A stretch of 64,000 nucleotides of DNA. Source: Winogradskyella sp. PG-2. Its GTDB lineage: Bacteria; Bacteroidota; Bacteroidia; Flavobacteriales; Flavobacteriaceae. A model generated the notes under the pieces. The model did no database searches. It was given only the letters and a program-made list of their open reading frames with translations, and was not told the origin of the DNA. Position 1 is the first letter of the stretch. Every line of letters starts with the position of its first letter. The stretch covers positions 294,501-358,500 of the forward strand of contig NZ_AP014583.1 of NCBI RefSeq assembly GCF_000828715.1. The letters are read 5' to 3'. The translations under genes and the position numbers were made by a program. This document shows positions 6,452-29,890 of this stretch, one piece after another.

Positions 6452-8233
6452 TTGAAAAAAGCACTGTACATATTATACATTCTATTGTTTAGTGCAACAA
6501 TCCCTCTAATTGCGCAAGATGTGTCCTTATTTCAACAATTTAACGGACGTTATGATTATACAGCTATTGGTAATACTCTAAATACAGTTGAAAATGGACC
6601 ATCTGCCTCATGCGCCATTCTATCCTCATCTTCTTCAGATTTAAATCTTAATGCAAGTCAAAATATAGCTGCTGCTTATCTCTATTGGGCTGGTTCTGGC
6701 ACTGGCGATTTTGATATTACTTTAAACGGCATCGCAGTATCAGCTGAACGCACTTTTAGTGATGCTTTAGATACGCAACGTGTCTTTTTTGCTGCGTTTG
6801 CGGATGTCACTACGATTATCACAAGTCAAGGTAATACTACTTATACAGTTTCAGATTTTGATTTAACTTCTATAATTGGACCTTACTGTGCTAGTGGAAC
6901 CAACTTTGGAGGTTGGGCAATTACTATTGTGTATGAAGATGATACATTACCACTTAATCAACTCAATGTTTATGATGGTTTACAAAGTGTGCCTTCTTTC
7001 TTAAGTATCACACTAGATAATCTAAACGTTCTAGACAACGAAGATGCAAAAATTGGTTTTGTAGCTTGGGAAGGTGATCGCGCTTTAGCTGTTAATGAAT
7101 CATTGACTATAAACGGAAATGTGATTAGTAATTTTCCTTTAAACCCAGCAAATAATGCCTTTAATGGTACAAATTCGTTTACAGGTGCTACGAATTTATA
7201 TAATATGGATATTGATGTTTATAATATTCAGGATAATATCAATATAGGTGATACTTCAGCAACCATTACACTCACTTCTGGACAAGATTATGTAATGATT
7301 AATAACATAATTACTGTACTTAATAGTCAATTACCAGATGCTACTATCGTAATTGATAATAATATTGTGAATTGTGGTGATAATGACATTGAGCTTTTTT
7401 ATACTATAAGTAATTTTAATAGTACAGAAATACTTCCTTCAAATACTCCTATAGCATTTTATTTAGATGGTATTTTAATTGGCCAAAGTTTAACTTTAAA
7501 CACAATTGCTATTGGTAGTAGTGAAAGCAACTCAATTGTAGTTACAGTGCCAGAAACTACAAATCCAAACTTTACTATAGTTGCCAATGTAGATGATGAT
7601 GGCACTATGAGCGGAATTGTAACAGAAACCAATGAGACTAATAATACAACCTCAGTTGCTATTGAATTACTTGTAATTCCTGATATTGTAGTGCTCCCAA
7701 ATTTGATAGGTTGTAATGAAGGTTTCGAAAAGTCTACCTATAACTTATATAATGCACTTGAAAGTCTAAATTATAACGAAGATGATATTTCTTTTTTCCT
7801 ATCTATTGAGGACCTTCAAACACAGTCCAATGAAATTTCAATTCCAACCAGTTACAATAACTCATCTAACCCTGAGACTATTTATGTAAGACTAATAAGT
7901 CCTCCTTGTTATGAAATTTTTCAATTCGATTTAACAATAGAAAATTGCCCTCCTTATATACCACGAGGGTTTTCACCAAATGATGACGGTTATAACGATT
8001 GGTTTAATATACAAGGTCTTTATGATATTTTTACAGAACATCAATTAAAGATTTATAATCGTTATGGTGATGTTATTTTTGAAGGCAACAACGATAAACG
8101 CTGGTATGGTCTTATTAACAGAGGATTAAACAATCATGGGGAATCTGCACCTGTAGGTACTTATTATTACATTCTTAATCTTAATGACCCAAATTATCAG
8201 CCATCAGTTGGCTGGGTTTATGTAAATTACTAA
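6452..8233 (+). CDS. Secreted protein with CHU_C-type (T9SS type B-like) C-terminus
   Basis: This gene encodes 593 residues and starts at a TTG 37 bases after the previous stop, giving the signal peptide MKKALYILYILLFSATIPLIAQ; no better ATG lies nearby. Residues about 25-290 form a beta domain (YLYWAGSGTGDFDITLNG, FGGWAITIVYEDD, KIGFVAWEGDR) of a type common in flavobacterial adhesin-like proteins. A CARDB-like segment follows (about 300-410, FYLDGILIGQSL ... NETNNTT), then one beta domain. The C-terminus reads FSPNDDGYNDWFNIQGL, LKIYNRYGDVIFEG, APVGTYYYILNL. It keeps the FSPNxDG and YNRYG motifs but ends in WVYVNY, not the usual xFxLKR, so it is a variant tail. It probably forms one transcription unit with the two genes before it. 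Confidence 0.8.
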   Translation: MKKALYILYILLFSATIPLIAQDVSLFQQFNGRYDYTAIGNTLNTVENGPSASCAILSSSSSDLNLNASQNIAAAYLYWAGSGTGDFDITLNGIAVSAERTFSDALDTQRVFFAAFADVTTIITSQGNTTYTVSDFDLTSIIGPYCASGTNFGGWAITIVYEDDTLPLNQLNVYDGLQSVPSFLSITLDNLNVLDNEDAKIGFVAWEGDRALAVNESLTINGNVISNFPLNPANNAFNGTNSFTGATNLYNMDIDVYNIQDNINIGDTSATITLTSGQDYVMINNIITVLNSQLPDATIVIDNNIVNCGDNDIELFYTISNFNSTEILPSNTPIAFYLDGILIGQSLTLNTIAIGSSESNSIVVTVPETTNPNFTIVANVDDDGTMSGIVTETNETNNTTSVAIELLVIPDIVVLPNLIGCNEGFEKSTYNLYNALESLNYNEDDISFFLSIEDLQTQSNEISIPTSYNNSSNPETIYVRLISPPCYEIFQFDLTIENCPPYIPRGFSPNDDGYNDWFNIQGLYDIFTEHQLKIYNRYGDVIFEGNNDKRWYGLINRGLNNHGESAPVGTYYYILNLNDPNYQPSVGWVYVNY

Positions 8234-13621: not shown

Positions 13622-16600
13622 ATGAAAAAGAAAAGTATATACTTATTTCTCTTCCTTTTCACGCATATATATTTCATATATGCGCAGCAAATCATTACTG
13701 ACAATTCTTTGCAGCCACAAGAGTTGATAGATAACCTGACTAATGGTAGTTGTGTTATTGCAGAAAATGCTACCTCCAACATTAACGGAACTATAAATGG
13801 CATTACCAGCTATGGATTATTTAATAGAGGTACTTCTGATTTTCCATTAGAGAATGGTATTGTATTATCTACAGGAAACATAACCTCCGCAGGTAATACA
13901 ACTCAATTTTTAAGTTTAAATGATGGAAATATAGATTGGGAAACAGACTCAGATATCGAATCTATTCTTGGTATAAACCAAACACTTAATACCACGTCTT
14001 TAGAATTTGATTTTACATCTACAAATAACAGTGTTGGGTTTAAATATATTTTTGCTTCAGATGAATACCAACAACAATATGCATGTAATTTCCGAGATGT
14101 ATTTGCTATTTTAATAAAAGAAGTAGGTTCTGCAGATCCTTATGTAAATATTGCTTTAATACCAGATACAAACATTCCTGTCACAACGAGTTCTATTCAT
14201 CCAGAAATTGTTAATGGTTGCGATGCAGAAAACGACTCTTTTTTTGAAGGATATAACCTTCCTGCAACTAATTTCGATGGACAGACAGTAGTTTTAAATG
14301 CAAGTACTGATATTACACCAGGTGTTACTTACCACGTTAAATTTATAATAGCAGATCATATTGATCAACGTTTTGATTCTGCCGTATTTATCGAATCTGA
14401 TAGTTTTGGAAACACAGTAGATTTAGGTCCTGATGTTACAGCCTGTGGTTCTTCTGTAGTTTTAGATGGTACAGTTACAATGCCAAATGCATCTTACACG
14501 TGGTTTAAAGACGACATAGAAATAGTTGGAGCAACAAGTCCTTTATTCGATGTCACAGAATCAGGAACTTATGAAATTGTGGTGACCATACAACTTCCAA
14601 ACGGAACCTGTTCATTTTCTGATTCTGTTATTATTAATACAGTTCCTTTTCAACAAGCTGTGCCAATCTCTGATCTTGTTATTTGCGATGAGCCACCTGC
14701 AGATGGCATTGTGTTCTTTGATTTAACAACAAAAAATGACGAAATATATGATGCTTTACCATCAACCGATTATGTTATAAGTTACCATAGATCAGAAGAT
14801 GATGCTTTTAATAACATCGCTCCAATTATTGGTGATTATCAAAACACAGATTCTTCTGAAACACTATATGTGAGAATAGAAAGTCTAGATGGTAGCTGTT
14901 TACAAATTGGTAATTTCAATGTAGAAATAGGTGCTAAACCAAATTTTATAATTATTCCTCCAATAATCCTATGTTCTCAATTTTTAATTGATGGTGTAGG
15001 CTATTTAGAACTCTCTTATTACGCTTTTGAAATTGCCAATTATGAATTTAATAGAACCGTTACATATCATACAACAGAACAAGATGCTAACGACGGAGTA
15101 GACTCAATCACCTTTGCATCTGAAATGCCTTTTGGATCAACTTATACTTACGTAAGAATCGTAAATGATTTTACAGGTTGCTTTATAGTAGTACCGATAC
15201 AAATTATCATTCTAGATCGCTTAGATTTCAACCAACGCTTTTTTATTGATTTATGCTTAGATTCAGGTGAATCCACAGCTATATTTGATTTAGAGATTAT
15301 CGTTAATGAAGTTTTAGAAGAATATCCAGATGCTAATGTTTCTTTTTACACAAGTATCCAAGATGCAGAAGATGAAGCGTTTCCGATTTTCCCAGGATAT
15401 CTATATCAAAATGAAACTCCGTTTCAACAAACTGTTTACATGAATGTTAAAAATCTAAATCAACCCTGTCCTACATTAGCTGAAGTAGATTTGCATACCA
15501 ATTTAACACGTAATGTAATTGGAGATCAACCTCTTGTTCAAAAGTGTGATGATATTTCGGGTGATGGAATATTAGATTTTGATTTAATGGAAGTTGCAGA
15601 AGAAATAAAAGACGGATACGATATTGATGTTACATTTTTTAACACCGTAGAAGATCGATCTAATGGCATAAATACAATTGATTTAGGCATACCATATACT
15701 GTTACTAATTCTGAAGGTATTATTTATGCGACCGTTTCTAGTAATAACTGTGACTACTATACTGAAGTAACCCTAAGAGTTAACCCTCTTCCTATATTAG
15801 CTCCACAGGTCATAGACTATTGTGGAAATCCTAATGCAGAAGAAGGTTATACTAGTATCTTAATTGGCCCTTTAAAAAATATAGTATCCGAAGGACTCTC
15901 AGATACAAGCATCGCATTTTATGAAAATGAAGCGGATGCCATATCTGATGAAAATGAGTTATTTGTAACTTACAATGCAACGAGTAGTTCGCCTATTCTT
16001 TATGCTCGTGTTATAAATGGAAGAACACAATGTTATAGTATTACAACCGTACAAGTCAATATCTCTGATGAGTTAGCTATTGCAACACCAGATCCGATTG
16101 TAGTCTGCGAATACGACTATGATGATACTGCAATAGTAAATCTAGAGAGTGTATTACCTCAATTATCTGATGATTTATCTAATGTAACAGTTTCATTTCA
16201 CGAAAACTTTAGACATGCAGTACTTAGCATAAGTCCTATTACTAATACTCAGAACTATACTACGCAATCTACCGAACTTTATATTAGGGTAGCCTTAGAA
16301 AATTTAGATTGTTTTGTTGTAGTTCCTTTAGATATTCAGATTTATGAAGACCCAATACTAAATTCAATTTCAGATTATATTAACTGTGAAACAGAACCAA
16401 ACTTAACTTCTGAATTTTATTTTATCAACAAAGACATCGAAGTAATTAATGGTCAATCTGGTATGGAAGTCCTTTATTTTGAAACTGAAATAGATGCAAA
16501 TAATAGAGAATATAGCATCGATAAAAATGCTCCTTATTTGGCATCTTCTAATCCACAAACTATATATGTAAGACTTGAGAATGAAGCAGGAAATAGTTGT

Positions 16601-18451
16601 TACAAAGTAGCACCTATGCAAATTGAAGTGAGACAAGCACCTCTTTACAACGAACCTACTGATATTTTTGAGTGCGATTATAATGGCAACCAATTAAATA
16701 CTGTAGATTTTAATGAAAAAATTGATGAAATTACTAATGGTGTTAGTCAAGATTTAAATGTTACGTTTCATCTAACTCCTCTAAATGCAGATATTAGTAC
16801 CAATGCGTTACCATTAAATTACACCACAACAGTAAATCCACAACTGATATATGCTCGTGTTGAAAATTTAGCTTCTGGTTGTCATAGTGTCGCTACATTT
16901 AATATTACAACCTTAGCGTTACCAGAGGTCAATTACGGACAATCACTTATTAATTGTGCTAATAATTATGAATTTGAACAAGAATGGAATTTAACAGACG
17001 TTGAACTTCTTATTTTAGAAGGTCGTCAATATGGTGTTGAATTTTCTTATTATGAATCTGTAGAAGATCTTCAAAATAATACCAATGAAATTCTAAATTT
17101 TGAAAATTATACCAACACGAGTAATCCTCAAACTATTTTTGCAAAAGTACTTAACGTCAGCACCACGTGCTTTTCTTCAGTACCATTTTCTTTAATATTA
17201 AATGGTCCTCCAGTAATTAATGACATTGAAACATTTAATACATGTGATACTTTAGATAATAGCATTAACCTCTTAGATATTAATGATGCTCTCTTCGAAA
17301 ACACTTTTAATGTACTTATAAGTTATCACACTAGTGAAACTGATGCTGAAGCAAATATAAATCCACTTAACACCAACTATTCGTATACAAATGCTATCGA
17401 AACTTTATACGTAAGAGCTGAATACAGTACCACACATTGTTATGCGGTTTATCCATTTACGCTTAATGTAAATCCATTACCAATCGCAAACCAACCTAAT
17501 GATTTAATAGCATGTGACGATGACTTTGATGGATTTGTACAGTTTGATTTATCACTACAAAACGGAGCCGTCTTAAATGGTCAGAATTCAAATGACTATA
17601 CTATTACATACCATAATTCTGAGATAGATGCCATTGAAAACAATGAAGCTATTGATAATGAATATTTAGCATATAATAGTGAAACCATTTTTGTAAGACT
17701 CACAAATAATGAGACGTCTTGTTATGATTTCACACAATTCTCCGTCGTAATAAATCCATTACCTTTTGTGTCTATTGAAGAACAAGTTGTTTGTTTAAAT
17801 AATTTACCACTTGTTGTTTCTGCTGATACTAATAACCCTTTAGATAGTTATTTATGGTCTACGAATGCAGCGACCTCAGAAATTGAAATCTTTCAAACTG
17901 GCACATATTCTGTAACCATTACTAATGAATTTGGTTGTGAAAGTACCAGTACATTTAACGTTACTGAATCAGAATCAGCAGAAATTGACGTCATTGAAAC
18001 TATTGATTTTTCAGATCCAAATAACATTACTGTAACTGTTAATGGTATTGGTAATTATCTATACCAATTAAATGATGGACCGCTTCAATCTTCAAATATT
18101 TTTGTAAACGTACCTATAGGATACAACACAATTACGATAATAGACCAAAATGGTTGTGATAGAATTACAAGAGACGTTTTAGTTATTGATACCCCAAAAC
18201 ATCTCTCTCCAAATGACGATGGAGATTTTGATACATGGCATATTACTGGAGTTGAAACTCTAACAGGTACAGTTATACATATCTTTGATCGCTATGGTAA
18301 ACTTCTAAAAGAGTTAGGCCATAACACTTCTGGTTGGGATGGTACTTTTAACGGCAACGAAATGCCAGCAGGTGATTACTGGTATATCGCTAATGTCATT
18401 CAAAATGGGGAAAGTTTTCAAGTGAAAGGGCATTTTGCTTTAAGACGTTAG
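13622..18451 (+). CDS. Choice-of-anchor L domain protein with 11 DxDG-like beta domains and T9SS type B tail
   Basis: This protein has 1609 residues and the signal peptide MKKKSIYLFLFLFTHIYFIYAQQ. The order is the same as in the gene before it: anchor L domain (FPLENGIVLSTGNITSAG, FKYIFASDEYQQQY, FDSAVFIESDSF), 11 beta domains, two Ig-like domains and a type B tail (HLSPNDDGDFDTWHITG, IHIFDRYGKLL, GWDGTFNG, GHFALRR). Matching domains align by position: the tenth domain in both carries VRAEYSTTHC followed by LNVNPLPIANQP. Many of its loops have lost acidic residues (CSQFLIDG, CGNPNAEEG, CANNYEFEQ), whereas the upstream paralog keeps DxDxDG more often. The pair arose by duplication of the whole gene and has since diverged. 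It is probably surface-attached; substrate unknown. Confidence 0.85.
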   Translation: MKKKSIYLFLFLFTHIYFIYAQQIITDNSLQPQELIDNLTNGSCVIAENATSNINGTINGITSYGLFNRGTSDFPLENGIVLSTGNITSAGNTTQFLSLNDGNIDWETDSDIESILGINQTLNTTSLEFDFTSTNNSVGFKYIFASDEYQQQYACNFRDVFAILIKEVGSADPYVNIALIPDTNIPVTTSSIHPEIVNGCDAENDSFFEGYNLPATNFDGQTVVLNASTDITPGVTYHVKFIIADHIDQRFDSAVFIESDSFGNTVDLGPDVTACGSSVVLDGTVTMPNASYTWFKDDIEIVGATSPLFDVTESGTYEIVVTIQLPNGTCSFSDSVIINTVPFQQAVPISDLVICDEPPADGIVFFDLTTKNDEIYDALPSTDYVISYHRSEDDAFNNIAPIIGDYQNTDSSETLYVRIESLDGSCLQIGNFNVEIGAKPNFIIIPPIILCSQFLIDGVGYLELSYYAFEIANYEFNRTVTYHTTEQDANDGVDSITFASEMPFGSTYTYVRIVNDFTGCFIVVPIQIIILDRLDFNQRFFIDLCLDSGESTAIFDLEIIVNEVLEEYPDANVSFYTSIQDAEDEAFPIFPGYLYQNETPFQQTVYMNVKNLNQPCPTLAEVDLHTNLTRNVIGDQPLVQKCDDISGDGILDFDLMEVAEEIKDGYDIDVTFFNTVEDRSNGINTIDLGIPYTVTNSEGIIYATVSSNNCDYYTEVTLRVNPLPILAPQVIDYCGNPNAEEGYTSILIGPLKNIVSEGLSDTSIAFYENEADAISDENELFVTYNATSSSPILYARVINGRTQCYSITTVQVNISDELAIATPDPIVVCEYDYDDTAIVNLESVLPQLSDDLSNVTVSFHENFRHAVLSISPITNTQNYTTQSTELYIRVALENLDCFVVVPLDIQIYEDPILNSISDYINCETEPNLTSEFYFINKDIEVINGQSGMEVLYFETEIDANNREYSIDKNAPYLASSNPQTIYVRLENEAGNSCYKVAPMQIEVRQAPLYNEPTDIFECDYNGNQLNTVDFNEKIDEITNGVSQDLNVTFHLTPLNADISTNALPLNYTTTVNPQLIYARVENLASGCHSVATFNITTLALPEVNYGQSLINCANNYEFEQEWNLTDVELLILEGRQYGVEFSYYESVEDLQNNTNEILNFENYTNTSNPQTIFAKVLNVSTTCFSSVPFSLILNGPPVINDIETFNTCDTLDNSINLLDINDALFENTFNVLISYHTSETDAEANINPLNTNYSYTNAIETLYVRAEYSTTHCYAVYPFTLNVNPLPIANQPNDLIACDDDFDGFVQFDLSLQNGAVLNGQNSNDYTITYHNSEIDAIENNEAIDNEYLAYNSETIFVRLTNNETSCYDFTQFSVVINPLPFVSIEEQVVCLNNLPLVVSADTNNPLDSYLWSTNAATSEIEIFQTGTYSVTITNEFGCESTSTFNVTESESAEIDVIETIDFSDPNNITVTVNGIGNYLYQLNDGPLQSSNIFVNVPIGYNTITIIDQNGCDRITRDVLVIDTPKHLSPNDDGDFDTWHITGVETLTGTVIHIFDRYGKLLKELGHNTSGWDGTFNGNEMPAGDYWYIANVIQNGESFQVKGHFALRR

Positions 18452-18528: not shown

Positions 18529-20877
18529 ATGAAGCATTTTTTAGTATATACCACCTTATTATTAACACTATTTTCTTATTCGCAGAATATTAGTGTAAAT
18601 AGTCAAACTTATACTCCTCAACAACTCATTGAAGATATTTTAATTGATAGTGATTGTATTACTAATGTCTTAGTAACAAATATTGTAGGTGGAGATTTTG
18701 GTGGTATAGAGCAAAGCTATGGTTTTTTTGATGCAACCGGTACTACATTTCCTTTTGAAAGTGGCATTGTCCTTAGTACTGGAAGGTTAGTTAATGTACC
18801 TGGACCAAACAATACGCTAAGTGACGATGATGCACCTAACTGGGAAGGAGATTCAGATTTAGAATTTTCCTTAAATGAAACCAATACATTAAATGCAACT
18901 CTACTAGAATTTGATTTTACATCTGTGGCATCTCAAGTAAGTTTTAGGTACATTTTTGCTTCAGAAGAATATCAAGAAAATAATCCCAACAGCTGTCAAT
19001 TCTCTGACTTATTTGGGTTTTTAATCAGACCAACAGTTGGGCAAAATCAATATGAAAATATTGCACTAGTACCTGACACAAACATACCAGTTAAAGCGAC
19101 AACAGTAACTCCTGGAGTGCCTGGAAGCTGTCCACCTGAAAACGAAACTTATTTTGGAAGTTACAACGGTGTCAATTCACCTATAAACTTTAATGGACAA
19201 ACTGCTGTTTTAACTGCAACTGCTAACGTAGTTCCTAATCAATCCTACCATGTAAAATTGGTAATTGCAGATGAACAAAACTTTAGGTTTGATTCCGCTG
19301 TGTTTTTAGAAGCTGGTAGTTTTCAATTATCAACAGATTTGGGACCAAGCCGACTCATTGCAACAGGAAACGCTTTGTGTGAAGGAGAAACTCTAGATCT
19401 CATTGTTGATGAAGCTGGATTACCCTCTATTGATTGGTATAAAGATGATATTCTAATACAATCAACTCCAAGTGGATGTGTAGGTTGTGAGACATTTACT
19501 ATAATCGAACCAGGAACTTATACTGTTGAAGTAGGTCTTGCAGATGGTTGTATTTCCTTTGGAGAAGTGGTTATTGAATATTCTCCTTTACCTGTCGGAC
19601 AAGATTCAATTTTAATAGAATGTGATGTAAATCAAGATGGATTAACCACTTTTAATCTCTTTGATGCTACTAATAATTTAACTAACTCTGATGACTCATT
19701 AGCAATTCAAAATTTTTATCTAACAGAATCTGATGCTGAAAATAATATAAATCCAGTTTCAAATCCAACCAATTTTCAGAATACAGCACCTTTTCAAACA
19801 GTTTTCGCAAGAGTCATAAATGCTGCAAATTGTTTTGATATTGCTGAATTAGAATTACAAACATCTAATAATATAATAAGTATACCAGATTTAGGTGCCT
19901 GTGATGGAGACATTAGAGATGGTTTTGCAAATTTTACACTAAATGACATCGCTGCATCAATTATAACTCAGATACCTACGAATGCTGAAGTCACATATTA
20001 TGAAAACGAATCAGATGCATTAAGTGAGGTTAATGCACTACAAAGTAACTATGAAAATAGTATAGTAGATTCACAAACCATATTCGTGAAAATTAAAAAC
20101 AATAATCAATGTTTTAGTATTACAACCGTTAACCTCAATGTACTTTATACTCCACTTTTAGAACAGGATGAAACTATCCTTTACTGCCTTAATGCATTCC
20201 CAGAAACAATAACGATTTATGGAGGTATCCTCAATGATTTACCTAATAACTATTATTATCAATGGTTCTATAATGGAACGTTGACAGATGTTACAACATT
20301 ATTTAATGAGATTAACGAGGTTGGTATATATACTGTTATTGTTACAGATCCTAATGGCTGTTCAGCTCGTAGAACAATTACTATAAATCCTTCTGAAATT
20401 GCCATAATTGAAAATATCACCATAGAAGGTATTGCCCCAAATAACACTGTAACTATAGATGTTACTGGAAATGGTTTTTATGACTTTGCTGTAGATGATA
20501 TTGATGGTTTTTATCAAGAAAGCAATGTGTTTACCAATTTATCAGCAGGTTTTCACACCTTTTATATACGAGATAGAAATGGTTGTGGCATTACAGAAGA
20601 AATCATTTCTGTTCTTGGTTTTCCAAAATTCTTTACACCAAATGGAGATACTGACAACGAAACATGGAAAGTGAGAGGTACCAATACGCAATTCAGTCAA
20701 TTAGAATCTATTAATATTTTTAATCGTTACGGAAAACTAATCATACAACTCAATTCAGAACAAACAAGTTGGGATGGCAATCTTAATGGAAATAAACTAG
20801 CTAGTGATGATTATTGGTATGTCGCAAAGTTTATAGACGGCAGATCTTATACTGGTCATTTTGCGCTCAAGCGATAA
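18529..20877 (+). CDS. Choice-of-anchor L domain protein, short form (two DxDG beta domains), T9SS type B tail
   Basis: The product is 782 residues with signal peptide MKHFLVYTTLLLTLFSYSQ. The choice-of-anchor L domain occupies about residues 20-270 (FPFESGIVLSTGRLV, FRYIFASEEYQENN, FDSAVFLEAGSF). An Ig-like domain (about 275-355) and only two Cys-Asp beta domains (CDVNQDG, CDGDIRDG) follow. The final Ig-like pair is related to that of the first two genes of the cluster (YCLNAFPETI; FHTFYIRDRNGCGITEE) more than to its immediate neighbours. The type B tail is FFTPNGDTDNETWKVRG ... GHFALKR. The cluster thus mixes front ends, repeat numbers and back ends. It lies 124 bases upstream of the HTCS gene. 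Confidence 0.85.
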   Translation: MKHFLVYTTLLLTLFSYSQNISVNSQTYTPQQLIEDILIDSDCITNVLVTNIVGGDFGGIEQSYGFFDATGTTFPFESGIVLSTGRLVNVPGPNNTLSDDDAPNWEGDSDLEFSLNETNTLNATLLEFDFTSVASQVSFRYIFASEEYQENNPNSCQFSDLFGFLIRPTVGQNQYENIALVPDTNIPVKATTVTPGVPGSCPPENETYFGSYNGVNSPINFNGQTAVLTATANVVPNQSYHVKLVIADEQNFRFDSAVFLEAGSFQLSTDLGPSRLIATGNALCEGETLDLIVDEAGLPSIDWYKDDILIQSTPSGCVGCETFTIIEPGTYTVEVGLADGCISFGEVVIEYSPLPVGQDSILIECDVNQDGLTTFNLFDATNNLTNSDDSLAIQNFYLTESDAENNINPVSNPTNFQNTAPFQTVFARVINAANCFDIAELELQTSNNIISIPDLGACDGDIRDGFANFTLNDIAASIITQIPTNAEVTYYENESDALSEVNALQSNYENSIVDSQTIFVKIKNNNQCFSITTVNLNVLYTPLLEQDETILYCLNAFPETITIYGGILNDLPNNYYYQWFYNGTLTDVTTLFNEINEVGIYTVIVTDPNGCSARRTITINPSEIAIIENITIEGIAPNNTVTIDVTGNGFYDFAVDDIDGFYQESNVFTNLSAGFHTFYIRDRNGCGITEEIISVLGFPKFFTPNGDTDNETWKVRGTNTQFSQLESINIFNRYGKLIIQLNSEQTSWDGNLNGNKLASDDYWYVAKFIDGRSYTGHFALKR

Positions 20878-20905: not shown

Positions 20906-20934
20906 TGTTACATGCGTAACACCCTTTGTTACAT
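20906..20934 (+). promoter_or_regulatory. Candidate HTCS/AraC binding site A: two TGTTACAT half-sites 21 bp apart
   Basis: TGTTACAT is present at 20906-20913 and again at 20927-20934, a start-to-start distance of exactly 21 bp. An inverted GTAACA (20916-20921) lies between them. The same arrangement occurs at 23905-23933. Tandem half-sites spaced by 21 bp are typical of AraC-family binding, and the gene downstream encodes an AraC domain. Binding itself is inferred. Confidence 0.5.
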
Positions 20935-20963
20935 AATTACCAGAGTTAACTCATTCATATTTA

Positions 20964-20971
20964 TAATATTG
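20964..20971 (+). promoter_or_regulatory. Imperfect -7 element TAATATTG of the HTCS gene
   Basis: This differs from TAnnTTTG at one base. It starts 37 bp after the second half-site of site A, the same distance as at the second locus. No good -33 element is present, as expected for an activator-dependent promoter. The start of transcription would be about 20976, which supports translation from 21002. Confidence 0.4.
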
Positions 20972-21001
20972 TATATATTAAATTTATCAGTTAATATTAT
21001 C

Positions 21002-23863
21002 ATGAATTTAAAGTATATCATCATTATCTTAATATTCCCTCTAATTTGTATTGGGCAAAATCAAGAAAAAATTGATTCTTTAAAAGCGCTCATTAAAACA
21101 TCTAAAAAATTATATAAAAAAGGCCTATTAGATAGTAGCTATAAATATGCAAAAGTTAGTTACAATTTGGCGAAACAACTAAATGCCGATTCCTTACAGG
21201 TAGAAATTTGTGGAACTCTGAGTATACTTGAGCCTAATTTAACAAAAGCATTAGCCTATATAGAGGAGTCTGAGCAATTTGCTATAAAAAACAATCAATG
21301 GAAACACCTAAAAAACATCTATTATACTAGAGGTGCGCTCTATTACAGAAAAAACATGAATGGCAGTGCTCTCGAGCATTTTCTTAGATTAGATTCTCTT
21401 TTAGAAATTAAGCAACGAGACAAATTCTTAACTGCCATGACTAAAGTAAAAATTATCGAAATTCTTTATGAATCGCGTTCTGTCAATGACACCAGTTATT
21501 TTCCTCAATTAAATAAAAACATTAATGATGGTCTTAAATTAGTTGAAGACGGATTAAAAATTGAAAAAGATAGTCTAGACTTCTACAATGCAAATTTTCT
21601 TAATGTCCCAGCAGCTATTTTTTACGAATATCAAGCCTATTTAGATACGGAAAGAAATCACCCTCAAAAAGCCATTGCTAATTACCAAATAGCACTAACA
21701 TATACTGTACATAGTGATACTATATTTAAGGAAAATCATCTTAGAAAATCTTTAATCTATAATGGATTAGCAAACTTATATAATAAAAACAATCAACTAG
21801 ATTCAGCTTTATATTATTTCAAAAAAGAATTAAAAGCAATTAATAAAAGTACTGACACTCTAAAAATGGCAATTACGCATTATAACATTGCCAAATTTTA
21901 CAATACTAATAAAAAACCAGAAAAGGCATTAGAGCACTTAAATACGTCTCAGGAACTTATGGATAATGCTTATTTTGTTCGTGAAGAAAACGAGTATGAC
22001 ATCCAAGAAATCTTTGCAAGTGTCTATTTTAATCTCGGGAAATTTGATAAAGCATTTGAGGCATCAGAAAAAGCAAGACATCACCTTATGTCAATTCAAA
22101 CCGAATTTAATAAGAAAAATATATCAGAGCTTGAAACAAAGTACCAGACCTCTAAAAAGGAACAAGAGATTAAATTGCTTAAATCTCAAAATGAAATCAT
22201 AGAAGAACAAAAAAAGAACGAACGCTATATTTTGTTAGGGAGTATATGTATTCTTTCTATTATTGGTTTTGCTCTATATTTTCTTTTTCGAAATCGTCAA
22301 AAAACAAACACCAAATTAAAGGAATTAGACACACTAAAATCTAACTTCTTTGCTAATATTTCGCATGAGTTTCGCACACCTTTAACATTAATAAACAGTC
22401 CTATCGATGATATTTTAACAGAAGATTCTATATCTAATCAAAAGCGACAACAATTTACTATAGCCAAGCAAAATTCTGAACGGCTTTTAAAACTTGTTAA
22501 TCAAGTTCTAGACTTATCTAAAATTGATGAAGGGCAGTTAAAATTAAAGCTACAACAAGGCAATGTGCTTCAACTTATTTTAGCACTAAGTGAAGCTTTC
22601 ACTTACCAAGCACTACAAAAAAATATTAGCTATATCCTTAATATAAATCATAGTATTGAGGAGGTTTGGTTTGATAAAGATGCTATTGAAAAGATAGCAA
22701 TTAACCTTTTATCTAATGCCATAAAATATACACCAGAAAATGGATTTATAACAACTGAAGCCTATATAGAAAAAAACAGACTATTTCTAAAAGTAAAAAA
22801 CTCTGGAAGAGGCTTAACAGCTTTTGAACTCGATAATATTTTTGGGCGTTTTTACCAAACTAATGAGCAAAATCAAGGTTCTGGTATTGGTTTAGCTCTG
22901 GTTAAAGAATTGGTAGAATTACATAAAGGAAAAATCGAAGTTCATAGTATACCAAACAAGGAAACACTATTTAGCCTCAGTCTATCTGTGGACGAAAATA
23001 ACTTCAAAAACAACACTATTTTAGTTAAGTCTAATAACGAAATTACAACCGAGACACATTTACACTCAGACCCTAAAATTGAAGATGATGAGGTCTTTAC
23101 AAATAGTGACTTACCTATTCTACTAATCGTAGAAGACAATGAAGACTTAAGGCATTTAATAAAACATATTTTTAAAGACAATTATAGTATTATTACTGCA
23201 CCGAACGGAAAAATTGGAGTTGAACTGGCTTTAGAACATATTCCAGATCTTATTATTTCGGATATTATGATGCCTATCAAAGATGGTATTGCGCTTACTA
23301 AAGACATAAAAAATGATGAGCGATCATCGCATATCCCAATAATATTACTGACGGCAAAAGCAGAAGTAGAAAGTCAGTTCTCAGGTATAGATTCTGGTGC
23401 CGACGATTATATTACCAAGCCTTTTGACAAAAAATTATTAGCACTTAAAGTCGAAAAACTCATTGCATCGAGGAAACAACTACAATTGCGTTACAGCCAA
23501 GAACTGGTATTACTACCAAAAGATATTTCTATTACTAATTTAGATGAACAGTTCTTGGAAAAAGTACAAACTACATTAGACAAAAACCTCATCGAGCCCT
23601 CATTTAATGTTACGGAATTCTCAGAAGCTGTTGGCATGAGTCGTATGCAATTACACAGAAAACTCAAAGCATTGACTGGTTTTACAGCATCAGAATTTAT
23701 TCGTTCTCAACGTCTAAAGCTGGCTGCGCAGTTTCTAAAAACCTCAGATATTAATATCTCGCAAGTTGGGTATTCTGTAGGTTTTAATGACCATTCTTAC
23801 TTTACCAAATGCTTTAAAGACTTTTACAAATGCACACCAACGGAGTATACAAAACGTAAATAA
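21002..23863 (+). CDS. Hybrid two-component system regulator (HTCS) with TPR sensor, kinase, receiver and AraC domains
   Basis: A single protein holds the sensor, the kinase and the transcription factor. From the ATG at 21002 it has 953 residues; an ATG at 20912 is rejected because it lies inside the candidate operator and ahead of the signal peptide. Visible parts are: signal peptide (1-18), TPR-like helical region predicted periplasmic (about 20-365), coiled coil, membrane helix (about 408-429), HisKA with ISHEFRTPL (His about 455), HATPase with NLLSNAIKYTP and GSGIGLALVKEL, receiver (VEDNED; Asp about 754 in IISDIMMP; Lys in ITKPFD), and AraC HTH (about 850-953, SRMQLHRKLKALTGFT, VGFNDHSYFTKCFK). 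It lacks the Reg_prop/Y_Y_Y propeller of glycan-sensing HTCS. Context suggests control of its own gene and the locus at 23977-26213. Confidence 0.9.
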   Translation: MNLKYIIIILIFPLICIGQNQEKIDSLKALIKTSKKLYKKGLLDSSYKYAKVSYNLAKQLNADSLQVEICGTLSILEPNLTKALAYIEESEQFAIKNNQWKHLKNIYYTRGALYYRKNMNGSALEHFLRLDSLLEIKQRDKFLTAMTKVKIIEILYESRSVNDTSYFPQLNKNINDGLKLVEDGLKIEKDSLDFYNANFLNVPAAIFYEYQAYLDTERNHPQKAIANYQIALTYTVHSDTIFKENHLRKSLIYNGLANLYNKNNQLDSALYYFKKELKAINKSTDTLKMAITHYNIAKFYNTNKKPEKALEHLNTSQELMDNAYFVREENEYDIQEIFASVYFNLGKFDKAFEASEKARHHLMSIQTEFNKKNISELETKYQTSKKEQEIKLLKSQNEIIEEQKKNERYILLGSICILSIIGFALYFLFRNRQKTNTKLKELDTLKSNFFANISHEFRTPLTLINSPIDDILTEDSISNQKRQQFTIAKQNSERLLKLVNQVLDLSKIDEGQLKLKLQQGNVLQLILALSEAFTYQALQKNISYILNINHSIEEVWFDKDAIEKIAINLLSNAIKYTPENGFITTEAYIEKNRLFLKVKNSGRGLTAFELDNIFGRFYQTNEQNQGSGIGLALVKELVELHKGKIEVHSIPNKETLFSLSLSVDENNFKNNTILVKSNNEITTETHLHSDPKIEDDEVFTNSDLPILLIVEDNEDLRHLIKHIFKDNYSIITAPNGKIGVELALEHIPDLIISDIMMPIKDGIALTKDIKNDERSSHIPIILLTAKAEVESQFSGIDSGADDYITKPFDKKLLALKVEKLIASRKQLQLRYSQELVLLPKDISITNLDEQFLEKVQTTLDKNLIEPSFNVTEFSEAVGMSRMQLHRKLKALTGFTASEFIRSQRLKLAAQFLKTSDINISQVGYSVGFNDHSYFTKCFKDFYKCTPTEYTKRK

Positions 23864-23904
23864 AACTAACTTCAAAACCCTTAGAACCCTTATTATTAAT
23901 AGTA

Positions 23905-23933
23905 TGTTACAATAGTTACAACTCTTGTTACAT
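23905..23933 (+). promoter_or_regulatory. Candidate HTCS/AraC binding site B: two TGTTACA half-sites 21 bp apart
   Basis: TGTTACAA (23905-23912) and TGTTACAT (23926-23933) are 21 bp apart, with a further AGTTACAA between them (23914-23921). Spacing and sequence match site A upstream of the HTCS gene. The similarity continues a few bases downstream, with CAG at matching places. The site ends about 30 bp before the -7 box at 23963. Confidence 0.5.
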
Positions 23934-23962
23934 ACCTCACAGTCTTCTTATTGGTATGCCTA

Positions 23963-23970
23963 TAGTTTTG
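23963..23970 (+). promoter_or_regulatory. -7 promoter element TAGTTTTG
   Basis: This is an exact TAnnTTTG match, starting 37 bp after the second half-site of site B. No TTTG is found at -33, which fits activator dependence. The next ATG (23977) is only seven bases further, so the transcript would be nearly leaderless. Confidence 0.5.
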
Positions 23971-23976
23971 TGGTGT

Positions 23977-24129
23977 ATGAAAAAAAAACGTACAACCTAC
24001 AAAAGCGAAATTGACCATTTTCAGTCAAAAACGATTTACATAAATGTTAATCATCTCACTTCTGGTAAATATGTTTTAAACATCACACATAATAATAAAA
24101 TCATAAAGAAAACCACTTTTAATAAATAA
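23977..24129 (+). CDS. 50-residue peptide resembling the end of a T9SS type A sorting domain
   Basis: The small reading frame encodes 50 residues beginning MKKKRTTYKSEIDHFQSK. Its second half, INVNHLTSGKYVLNITHNN with KIIKKTTF after it, follows the type A (Por_secre_tail) pattern of xxVxxLxSGxYxLxIxxxxxxxxKKFxx. It has no signal peptide, so it cannot use the T9SS in the normal way. An in-frame ATG at 23956 would add seven residues but overlaps the -7 box. It sits between the HTCS and the fibre-like gene, directly behind the candidate AraC site. It may be a remnant tail, a small regulator or a decoy; no function is claimed. Being short, it could also be non-coding. Confidence 0.45.
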   Translation: MKKKRTTYKSEIDHFQSKTIYINVNHLTSGKYVLNITHNNKIIKKTTFNK

Positions 24130-24222: not shown

Positions 24223-24254
24223 AAAGAAAGCCGCTGTAGGGAGCGGCTTTCTTT
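24223..24254 (+). terminator. Strong hairpin, terminator or attenuator
   Basis: A perfect 13-bp stem AAAGAAAGCCGCT / AGCGGCTTTCTTT encloses a six-base loop. The GC-rich core followed by TTTCTTT fits an intrinsic terminator. It lies 24 bases before the ATG at 24279 with no -7 element in between, so transcripts reaching that gene probably read through the hairpin, which points to attenuation. The rest of 24130-24222 shows no gene. Confidence 0.65.
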
Positions 24255-24278: not shown

Positions 24279-26213
24279 ATGAAAAATTATCTCACACTCT
24301 GTATTATTATGATTTGTATTACTTCTGTGTTAAATTCACAAGTTGGCATTAATACTACAGATCCACAAGCTCAATTAGATATTCGTTCGTCAAATCAAGC
24401 CGCACCAATAGCTACGGATGGCATACTCATCCCAAAAGTAGATGTGTTTCCAACTGGAGTCAGTTCAAATCAAGATGCCATGATGGTTTACCTTACGACT
24501 ACAGTTGGTAGTGACGCACCAGGATTTTATTACTACAGTCATGGAGCGGGATGGTTACCAATTGGCAGTGGAGCAAGAATAATTAATGATTTAATAGATG
24601 GTAAATCTGATAATGATGGCTCAGATAATGGTTCTTCAATTTTTTTAGGTATTGATGCAGGTCTTAATGATGATAGTTCCAATAATCATAATATAGGTGT
24701 TGGATTTCAATCTCTTCGTTTAAATAGTACAGGCAGTGAAAATACAGCAATTGGACATCAAGCTTTATCTTTAAATACAACAGGTACTCTAAATGTAGCA
24801 ACAGGATTTAGGGCTCTATTTCTTAATGCAGAAGGAAGTTATAATACAGCCACAGGATATAGGGCTTTGCGATATAATACAGAAGGAAATGGAAATGTAG
24901 CAACAGGATATCAATCTTTATACCGTAACATAACAGGGAATTCTAATATTGCAACTGGAAATAACAGCTTACTCTCAAATACTGAAGGGGATTATAATAT
25001 TGCTACTGGAACTAGAGCCTTAGGTGAGAATTTAATTGGAAGCTTTAATATAGCTAATGGTTATTATGCTTTAAATTTAAATACTGAAGGAAATTCTAAT
25101 ATCGCTATTGGAACTCAAAGTCAATATTCAAATATTACAGGTGATTATAATGTCGCTTATGGTGCTCAATCTTTATATGGTAACTCAACAGGATCTTACA
25201 ATATTGCTTTAGGTTATCGTGCAGGTTATAATGAAACAGGTTCTAATAGATTATATATAGAAAACAGTAGTTCTGCTTTTCCCTTAATTTACGGTGAATT
25301 CGATACTGATCTTTTAAGAATAAATGGCACTTTAGATATCAATAATGCGTATCAATTCCCTACAGCAGATGGAACTGTAAATCAAATCATGCAAACTGAT
25401 GGCGCAGGAAATGTGACTTGGGCTAATGCGGTAATCAATGAAATAAATGATTTAACAGATGCAAAGTCAGATAATGATGGTTCAGAAAATGGTTCGTCCA
25501 TTTTTTTAGGTATTGGAGCTGGTATTAATGACGATAGTTCAGATAACCGAAATATAGGAATTGGATATCAGTCTCTTAATTTAACAAATATAGGTGATAA
25601 TAATGTAGCTTTTGATTATCAATCTTTAATTAATAACTCAACTGGATCTAATAACATCGCAATTGGGTATGAAACTCTAAATAATAATATAACAGGATCT
25701 AGTAACATCGCAATTGGTTTTCAAGCAGGTTATAATGAAACAGGATCAAATAGATTATATATAGAAAATTCAGGTACAAATAACGCTCTTATTTATGGCG
25801 AATTTGATAATGACTTCATACGTATAAATGGCAGTCTAGATGTTACAGATGATTTAAGTGTTACTGATAATTTGAATGTCACTGGTACAATAGACGTAAC
25901 TGAAGAAATAAATCGAGTAGCAACAGGTAATGCTAACATCGTTCCTATTGCTTATGGAACAGTTGAGTCTAATGGTAATGTTTTAAGTGGTACAGGTAAT
26001 TTTACAGCAAGTTTAGCTTCTGGTGTTTTAACCATTAGTGTCAATACTGTAACATTAAGTGTGAATAATACCTCATGTGTAGTAACACCTTATTCAACTG
26101 CTTTTAGAACATCTAGCATTATTATAAGTGGTGGAGATATACAAGTTCGTATATTCAATAGTTCTGGCACTTTAACACCAACAACCTTTCAATTTACTAT
26201 TTATAAATTATAG
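24279..26213 (+). CDS. Secreted fibre-like protein with YadA-head-like repeats
   Basis: This encodes 644 residues with a signal peptide (MKNYLTLCIIMICITSVLNS) followed by VGINTTDPQAQLDIRSS, an opening common in Bacteroidota fibre-like proteins. Eleven 17-residue repeats (24681-25238) of the form GxxNIATGYxALxxNTx and four more (25542-25742) resemble the left-handed beta-roll of YadA-type heads. Both blocks end in the same module (AGYNETGSNRLYIENS, then LIYGEFDxD and RINGxLD). The last 100 residues are a beta domain ending FQFTIYKL. No T9SS tail is seen, nor an obvious membrane anchor, so export beyond the Sec step is unclear. Adhesin or fibre is inference. It may be controlled by the HTCS upstream. 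Confidence 0.7.
   Translation: MKNYLTLCIIMICITSVLNSQVGINTTDPQAQLDIRSSNQAAPIATDGILIPKVDVFPTGVSSNQDAMMVYLTTTVGSDAPGFYYYSHGAGWLPIGSGARIINDLIDGKSDNDGSDNGSSIFLGIDAGLNDDSSNNHNIGVGFQSLRLNSTGSENTAIGHQALSLNTTGTLNVATGFRALFLNAEGSYNTATGYRALRYNTEGNGNVATGYQSLYRNITGNSNIATGNNSLLSNTEGDYNIATGTRALGENLIGSFNIANGYYALNLNTEGNSNIAIGTQSQYSNITGDYNVAYGAQSLYGNSTGSYNIALGYRAGYNETGSNRLYIENSSSAFPLIYGEFDTDLLRINGTLDINNAYQFPTADGTVNQIMQTDGAGNVTWANAVINEINDLTDAKSDNDGSENGSSIFLGIGAGINDDSSDNRNIGIGYQSLNLTNIGDNNVAFDYQSLINNSTGSNNIAIGYETLNNNITGSSNIAIGFQAGYNETGSNRLYIENSGTNNALIYGEFDNDFIRINGSLDVTDDLSVTDNLNVTGTIDVTEEINRVATGNANIVPIAYGTVESNGNVLSGTGNFTASLASGVLTISVNTVTLSVNNTSCVVTPYSTAFRTSSIIISGGDIQVRIFNSSGTLTPTTFQFTIYKL
24681..25238 (+). repeat. 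Eleven 51-bp repeats coding for 17-residue beta-roll units
   Basis: Units follow a strict 17-residue period with Gly at position 1, Asn at 4, a hydrophobic residue at 5, Gly at 8 and a conserved Ala/Ser-Leu at 11-12. The DNA sequence has diverged between units, so the array is old. Confidence 0.75.
25542..25742 (+). repeat. Second array of four 51-bp beta-roll repeats
   Basis: The period and consensus are the same as in the first array. It is followed by the same AGYNETGSNRLYIEN module, which suggests that repeats plus cap were duplicated together. Confidence 0.7.
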
Positions 26214-29772: not shown

Positions 29773-29890
29773 AATTATTCGATTTTTAGATTGATACTCT
29801 ATAGACGATTAATTATTAATGATGTTACACTATTAAGAGTTGAATTAACATAGTTTAACACTGACTAACAATCATTTAACATTAGGGCAA

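Follow-up and report, generated by a model that had tools for sequence, protein, structure and literature searches.

A 21-bp TGTTACA repeat and a short stand-alone peptide accompany a hybrid two-component regulator in Winogradskyella and other Flavobacteriaceae

Introduction

Activators of the AraC/XylS type read DNA with two helix-turn-helix motifs (HTHs) that contact two boxes about one helical turn apart, and their binding units follow each other at two turns next to the promoter. The subject of this work is a hybrid two-component system (HTCS), a sensor kinase fused to such an AraC-type domain, which is encoded in a 64,000-nt stretch of Winogradskyella sp. PG-2 (contig NZ_AP014583.1, positions 294,501–358,500; hereafter the window, whose own numbering is used throughout), together with the paired TGTTACA words that flank its gene and a 50-residue peptide encoded behind it. 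The closest described systems are the HTCSs of Bacteroides thetaiotaomicron, for which 16 motifs were predicted; these are direct repeats averaging 21 bp apart and were interpreted as sites occupied by dimers on one face of the DNA (PMC3878776). The main text of that paper contains neither the word "peptide" nor the word "secretion", and its single mention of autoregulation concerns a Crp-family protein.

Comparison with relatives in the genus and in the family Flavobacteriaceae revealed that the HTCS, the 21-bp repeat downstream of it and the peptide are inherited together. Judging from these sequence comparisons, a dimer of the HTCS probably binds the two 21-bp units and serves a promoter consisting of a −7 element only, with the peptide as its conserved output. 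The parts of the locus are the following:

20906–20912 (+), distal half-site (TGTTACA) of the upstream site in the HTCS promoter, where the word TGTTACAT was matched exactly
20916–20921 (+), GTAACA, left arm of a near-palindrome GTAAC-N7-GTTAC, which is a perfect TGTAAC-N7-GTTACA in eight relatives of the genus
20927–20933 (+), promoter-proximal TGTTACA half-site of the upstream site, second copy of TGTTACAT, with a −7-type box 37 bp on
20964–20971 (+), −7-type element TAATATTG of the HTCS promoter, predicted transcription start at about 20976
21002–23863 (+), HTCS gene, 953 residues, with TPR sensor, HisKA, HATPase_c, REC and AraC-type HTH_18 (Pfam)
23905–23911 (+), TGTTACA box A of unit 1 of the downstream site, exact word
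23915–23920 (+), GTTACA, box B of unit 1
23926–23932 (+), TGTTACA box A of unit 2, exact word
23936–23941 (+), CTCACA, box B of unit 2, adjoining the −33 region
23963–23970 (+), −7-type element TAGTTTTG of the peptide promoter, predicted transcription start at about 23975
23977–24129 (+), free-standing peptide of 50 residues, like the C-terminal half of a type IX secretion system (T9SS) type A sorting domain, predicted leader of about 2 nt

The transcription starts were predicted by the rule that the last G of the −7 element lies at −5 (PMC6847099). For the HTCS the start codon at 21002 was preferred, as the start of the longest open reading frame (ORF), 20912, falls inside the site and was judged too early.

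Results

Paired sites in the window and the genome

A preliminary description of this DNA had reported two TGTTACA pairs, and both were found with their 21-bp spacing, at 20906/20927 and at 23905/23926, as were the −7-type boxes at 20964 and 23963, each 37 bp from the start of the second half-site. Its statement that the window lacks a third such pair also proved correct: with any gap of 10–18 bp only 2 exact pairs occur in the window (100 shuffles gave 0.02 on average and none reached 2), and the whole genome (3.81 Mb) has just 2 exact 21-bp pairs, both at this locus, with 1 match to the reversed-pattern control. When up to three mismatches were allowed, 28 pair matches were counted in the window against 14.7 expected, and 1 of 100 shuffles was as high. 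The closest near-matches to the 21-bp pair (2 mismatches, minus strand) lie at 26027–26054, inside the gene of a fibre-like protein, and at 29854–29881. Both exact sites further contain a GTWACA box, at 20916 and 23915, which begins 10 bp downstream of the first base of the leading TGTTACA. The missing good −33 element, noted earlier for both promoters, is weak evidence because promoters of Flavobacterium johnsoniae generally show a much less evident −33 motif (PMC6847099).

Conservation of the HTCS, the downstream site and the peptide

A search of 68 genomes of the genus with the 430-aa sensor half of the HTCS gave matches at E 1e-20 in nine, this one included. All eight relatives carry an exact TGTTACA-N14-TGTTACA downstream of the HTCS block. 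The 68 genomes together contain 55 exact pairs, spread over 27 of them, and 2 matches to the reversed-pattern control. Among the 53 distinct contexts of these pairs, the pattern TANNTT[TG] starts exactly at 37 bp in 36; of the 17 sites without the strict pattern there, six have a close variant (TAATATTG, TAATTTAG or TAATTTCG) and the remaining 11 look like chance matches. By our own reading, 20 sites stand directly behind an AraC-type gene and the peptide follows in 19 of them, within about 115 bp of the site in 18 and about 1.6 kb on in the other (S22); site S17 has no peptide downstream. Many sites lie ahead of further secreted genes, and therefore the sites appear to mark a regulon. In this genome and its relatives the downstream pair is strongly conserved, with its 37-bp spacing, behind HTCS genes.

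In the family, 397 genomes were searched with an alignment of eight genus peptides, and matches at E 0.001 were obtained in 107 genomes belonging to 87 of the 237 genera. The match rows comprised 107 short frames without internal stop, and by our own count about 30 parts of longer frames or frames with stops. Ninety of the short frames were examined (30 came with their loci and 60 of the other 77 were fetched, leaving out 17); two of these loci are from the genus of the window, one being the window itself. At 82 of the 90 loci the nearest upstream ORF of at least 100 aa on the same strand encodes an AraC domain. When the 330 bp ahead of the peptide were scanned, 45, 65 and 73 loci had TGTTACA pairs spaced 21 bp apart with 0, 1 and 2 mismatches, respectively, compared with at most 1, 5 and 22 loci at any other spacing from 10 to 35, and 0, 0 and 0.5 in shuffles. 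The peak at spacing 12 (5 and 22 loci at 1 and 2 mismatches) is perhaps the internal box. In 60 of the 73 family loci with a site, a −7-type box follows exactly 37 bp on. Since these loci were picked by the peptide, and not by the site or the HTCS, the site, the HTCS and the peptide are tied together. A coincidence of AT-rich intergenic words would fit the lone TGTTACA words, which are not enriched in the window (21 vs. 15.7 expected), but the exact-pair counts in the genome and the genus and the family spacing scan make it next to inconceivable; chance origin of the pairs was rejected on the genus pair counts and the 21-bp spacing peak.

In a sample of the phylum, 13 of 395 genomes matched the peptide at E 1e-4. 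The matches are stand-alone frames in six genomes of the same family and in one genome of another family (G644), and parts of long frames in the remaining six. In G644 the order is HTCS, exact pair, TAAGTTTG at 37 bp, peptide, and a protein with an OmpA-type-like C-terminal end. A contig scan with the HTCS as query gave five distant loci. The second HTCS of the PG-2 genome (L239, C1:1041662–1043209) has neither a pair (up to 3 mismatches) nor a peptide downstream, and a fibre-like gene follows it.

The regulator and the reader of the downstream site

The regulator is a true HTCS, in which the sensor, presumably periplasmic, is joined in one chain with HisKA, HATPase, REC and an AraC-type HTH according to Pfam. 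The same HisKA, HATPase, REC and HTH_18 domains were present in all 44 HTCSs scanned (the one of the window and 43 of the 57 extracted, the relatives being mostly cut N-terminally by the fetched stretch), and their sensors included Reg_prop in 29, Y_Y_Y in 29 and TPR in at least 14, that of the window among the latter. The downstream site has the form of an HTCS-class site as defined in PMC3878776, that is, a direct repeat about 21 bp apart.

In the alignment of the 44 HTCSs, residues S880, R881, Q883, L884, H885, R886 and K887 of the first HTH are invariant or 90% conserved; this alignment is a better basis than the HTH1 pattern, which missed 21 of 87. The near-invariant first HTH parallels the near-invariant box A, and the second HTH is variable. 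Where the second HTH has Thr, the base at +16 of unit 1 is T in 18 of 18 cases; where it has Asp, the base is T in 2 and G in 28 of 41 cases. In unit 2 the +16 base is T in 15 of 18 loci with Thr and in 4 of 41 with Asp; 12 loci with other residues stand outside these counts. Such covariation of base and residue is what would be expected of a site read by the adjacent HTCS, and it points to the HTCS as the binder of the downstream site, as the preliminary description had proposed. Another AraC-type protein, for example a tandem HTCS paralogue, is an improbable reader: two HTCS genes do stand in tandem before the site in five of the eight genus relatives (L015, L017–L020), but the window, L016, L021 and L022 keep their sites with a single HTCS, and the covariation is with the adjacent one.

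The upstream site and autoregulation

According to the preliminary description, the HTCS activates its own gene through the upstream site and through the downstream one turns on the peptide and perhaps the fibre gene. The exact repeat at 20906/20927 and its 37-bp spacing agree with self-activation in this genome. All eight genus relatives, however, have a palindrome TGTAAC-N7-GTTACA upstream of the HTCS block instead of the 21-bp direct repeat. In each of them a promoter-type box still begins 37 bp from the first base of the TGTTACA within the palindrome, TANNATTG in seven and TAATATAG in L021. The only HTCS-type genes of the genus seen with an exact direct repeat upstream are that of the window and one in G035 (S41). 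Outside the genus, 40 regions around HTCS starts were fetched, and in the 29 where the start could be called by our own rule (11 were dropped) 250 bp were scanned; 27 had no upstream site, and two had one, namely L200 with an exact direct repeat and L213 with a palindrome that has 1 mismatch. An upstream pair with 1 mismatch was also met at L244, a locus retrieved for a different purpose and not part of this count.

Autoregulation was thus rejected as a conserved core of the system, with a site at 2 of 29 family starts. Self-control of the HTCS seems to be the rule among the genus loci examined and occasional outside them, and the binder is less sure here than at the downstream site. The full scheme in which the HTCS activates itself and in addition switches on both the peptide and the fibre gene in this genome, which could call on the upstream direct repeats of G035, L200 and L244, is doubtful in view of the palindromes, the 27 starts without a site and the hairpin before the fibre gene described below. 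It seems rather unlikely, in turn, that the palindrome is read by another regulator, for example of the Crp type, leaving the HTCS gene without self-regulation. Palindromes are typical of such dimers, and a 22-bp palindromic motif was reported for a Crp-family protein in Bacteroides (PMC3878776), but the proximal half of the palindrome is TGTTACA and stands 37 bp from a −7 box, as in the peptide promoters.

The peptide

The peptide has a basic N-terminus followed by a core near IYLN(V/I)(N/D)HLxKGxYxLxIxxKNKxIK. The G and Y of the GxY element are invariant in 78 sequences, and GxY starts 21–24 residues from the C-terminus in 87 of the 90 peptides; the starts were set by a rule permitting 40–62 aa (the result being 43–61), so the conservation of length is partly built in. 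Among ten genus sequences dN/dS was 0.04–0.43, mostly 0.2 or less, for pairs with unsaturated dS. The peptide is therefore under purifying selection and behaves as a real protein. Its correspondence to only the second half of a sorting domain and its place before other genes might suggest a decayed remnant of a T9SS cargo gene, or a leader feature that is not translated, but the low dN/dS and the kept GxY position make this very improbable, and the decayed remnant was rejected on dN/dS. At one locus (L241, G000:C1:2296037–2296156) a T9SS sorting domain is apparently split by a stop, and the peptide model matches the second half of it.

The window peptide matches positions 39–73 of the 75 of Por_Secre_tail, below the curated cut-offs (22.7 bits vs. 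27 in Pfam, 17.4 vs. 23 in NCBIfam); it is thus not a full T9SS type A sorting domain, and with 50 aa it does not combine a signal peptide with a cargo domain. No run of eight hydrophobic residues occurs in the first 30 residues of any of the 90 peptides, as assessed by a simple pattern and not by a signal-peptide predictor. Similarity of the core to the sorting-domain profile was seen more widely: 30 of 78 peptides matched PF18962 (Por_Secre_tail) at E 0.01 or better, 15 matched DUF3244 (Pfam), and hhalign against six sorting domains gave 93.3% over 22 columns, the six having been picked by a pattern that includes LxxGxY. AlphaFold2 modelled the peptide as a hairpin (pLDDT 87.7, pTM 0.50); a Foldseek search with this model returned 22 matches, none at E 0.001 or better, and the best hit of a PDB sequence search had E 0.04. 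Most of the 120 homologues listed (of 295) are nameless; the names given to the others are hypothetical protein, uncharacterized protein and secretion C-terminal sorting domain. The peptide thus looks like a relative of the latter half of a type IX secretion signal, standing on its own.

The class of the peptide tracks the class of the HTCS sensor in 42 of 44 cases with revised patterns (29 Reg_prop, in agreement with Pfam); the first patterns split less cleanly (24 and 1 in the Reg_prop class, 11 and 17 in the other). The peptide had been proposed earlier as an output of the HTCS, and its conservation behind the HTCS and the site, with purifying selection, is in keeping with this, the direction of control being what we infer.

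Hairpin, fibre gene and other neighbouring genes

Three further features flank or follow the circuit:

24223–24254 (+), terminator-like hairpin with a 13-bp stem and a 3′ arm ending in UUUCUUU (−21.4 kcal/mol, z −5.35)
24279–26213 (+), ORF of a fibre-like protein of 644 aa, an unproven candidate target
18529–20877 (+), upstream neighbour, for a choice-of-anchor L protein bearing a T9SS type B sorting domain, left outside the circuit

The hairpin sits between the peptide and the fibre gene, 24 nt before the fibre start codon, and might act on the fibre gene as a terminator or an attenuator. A scan with a simple terminator consensus includes it, with no excess of such sites (1 vs. 1.4 in shuffles). 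Since it precedes the fibre gene, the latter may not be co-transcribed with the peptide. No exact TGTTACA pair of its own was found for the fibre gene, and the 644-aa protein had no Pfam match at E 0.001. Thus the fibre gene, which the preliminary description had named as a possible target, is a doubtful one here; as the obvious target in this genome it was rejected because of the hairpin.

In L015 and L018–L021 the next gene starts 3–5 nt past the peptide stop. At one locus (L093:64–1494, minus strand) the gene directly behind the peptide encodes a fibre protein that matches both YadA-head and Peptidase_S74 (endosialidase chaperone). Ten of the 70 first downstream proteins listed were scanned, the neighbourhood being limited to the first gene: none was SusC or SusD, and none matched the sorting domain at E 0.001 (one was judged on the best 25 of 35 NCBIfam matches). 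Several first downstream genes appear to have sorting-domain-like ends, for example in L108, L122 and L155. T9SS type B (CHU_C) sorting domains occur in secreted proteins encoded upstream of the HTCS in the window (6452–8233, 13622–18451 and 18529–20877).

Discussion

The computations show the sites and their spacing, the joint inheritance of the parts, the base-residue covariation and the selection acting on the peptide. The picture that we favour on this basis is the following. A signal from the envelope would activate the HTCS, and the phosphorylated form would act. Its AraC domain would bind as a head-to-tail dimer to the two 21-bp units. In each unit the near-invariant first HTH would read box A, TGTTACA, and the variable second HTH would read box B, which lies about 10 bp further along. 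Unit 2 ends beside the −33 region, so the dimer could recruit RNA polymerase to a promoter whose sole element is the −7 element 37 bp on. The first output would be an mRNA for the peptide of some 50 residues, which would stay in the cytoplasm; in this genome the mRNA is predicted to be near-leaderless, as the ORF begins about 2 nt past the predicted start at 23975. In many relatives a gene whose product is a fibre, an OmpA, a lipoprotein or another kind of secreted protein comes next at a short distance and may be transcribed along with the peptide gene, and in this genome the hairpin may leave the peptide transcript alone. In this genus, the palindromic site with the same 37-bp spacing would add control of the HTCS gene itself.

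Several observations weigh against this picture. Eight of the 90 peptides have no AraC gene as the nearest upstream ORF: one is at a contig end, two have an AraC gene 1.3–1.5 kb further up, and the rest have none in the stretch. The association of Thr or Asp with the +16 base of unit 1 (Fisher p 3e-13) concerns a position chosen post hoc from the group consensus, and the p value is uncorrected for shared ancestry. In NCBIfam a leptospiral lipoprotein family was matched by 26 of 78 peptides, and the sorting domain by fewer, 13 of 78. The correlation of the peptide with the kinase (0.69) is barely above that with the sensor (0.66) and drops to 0.35 and 0.28 within the classes, therefore no partner is singled out. 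To these the scarcity of upstream sites at family HTCS starts has to be added.

As to the role of the peptide, feedback on the HTCS, with the kinase or the receiver as its partner, appears the likeliest, although this is a tentative choice. A more specific form of the idea is somewhat more speculative: many HTCSs across Flavobacteriaceae would have a dedicated micro-protein that stays in the cytoplasm, mimics half of a T9SS sorting domain, is made first from the activated operon and either feeds back physically on the kinase or couples it to T9SS load. Alternatively, the peptide may serve secretion and not signalling, as a decoy or a chaperone-like factor for T9SS cargo. Its similarity to the sorting domain and the sorting-domain-like ends of some downstream genes would fit such a task, but the lack of a hydrophobic signal-like stretch, the ten scanned downstream proteins without a sorting-domain match and the tracking of the HTCS class by the peptide class render it less likely.

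With these results, HTCSs outside gut Bacteroides gain a concrete DNA code, made up of box A, the box B variants and the 37-bp promoter spacing, which predicts regulons for surface proteins. A widespread family of proteins of about 50 residues, under purifying selection and with named members called hypothetical or secretion tail, is also brought to light. If the peptide does regulate the kinase or read the secretion load, a new layer of control would exist in a large family of environmental bacteria.

Compared with AraC/XylS activators, the geometry of the site fits, and the DNA-binding part is here controlled by a receiver and fused to a sensor kinase. With Por_Secre_tail/TIGR04183 the peptide shares the L-x-x-G-x-Y-x-L-x-I core near the C-terminus; unlike proteins bearing that domain, it is the second half only, free-standing, without a signal-like stretch and below the cut-off. 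Among proteins with a sorting domain, PorA of Porphyromonas gingivalis comes closest as an earlier example of an effect on a two-component pathway: it has a T9SS C-terminal domain and affects the PorXY-SigP pathway. PorA is larger and surface-exposed, and its pathway is not an HTCS (PMC7712824). Secretion-linked feedback such as that considered above for the peptide is described for no HTCS in the open-licence literature searched. The HTCS regulons of B. thetaiotaomicron share the protein architecture and the 21-bp direct repeat, and this repeat is already known as the Bacteroides HTCS pattern (PMC3878776). The HTCSs described there have mostly COG3292 sensors and were analysed with polysaccharide loci, whereas here at least 14 of 44 have a TPR sensor, the first genes encode surface proteins, one box A word is used across many genera and a micro-protein is present. 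As far as literature searches show, the box A word shared by many genera, the box B code, the surface-protein targets and the conserved stand-alone peptide are new.

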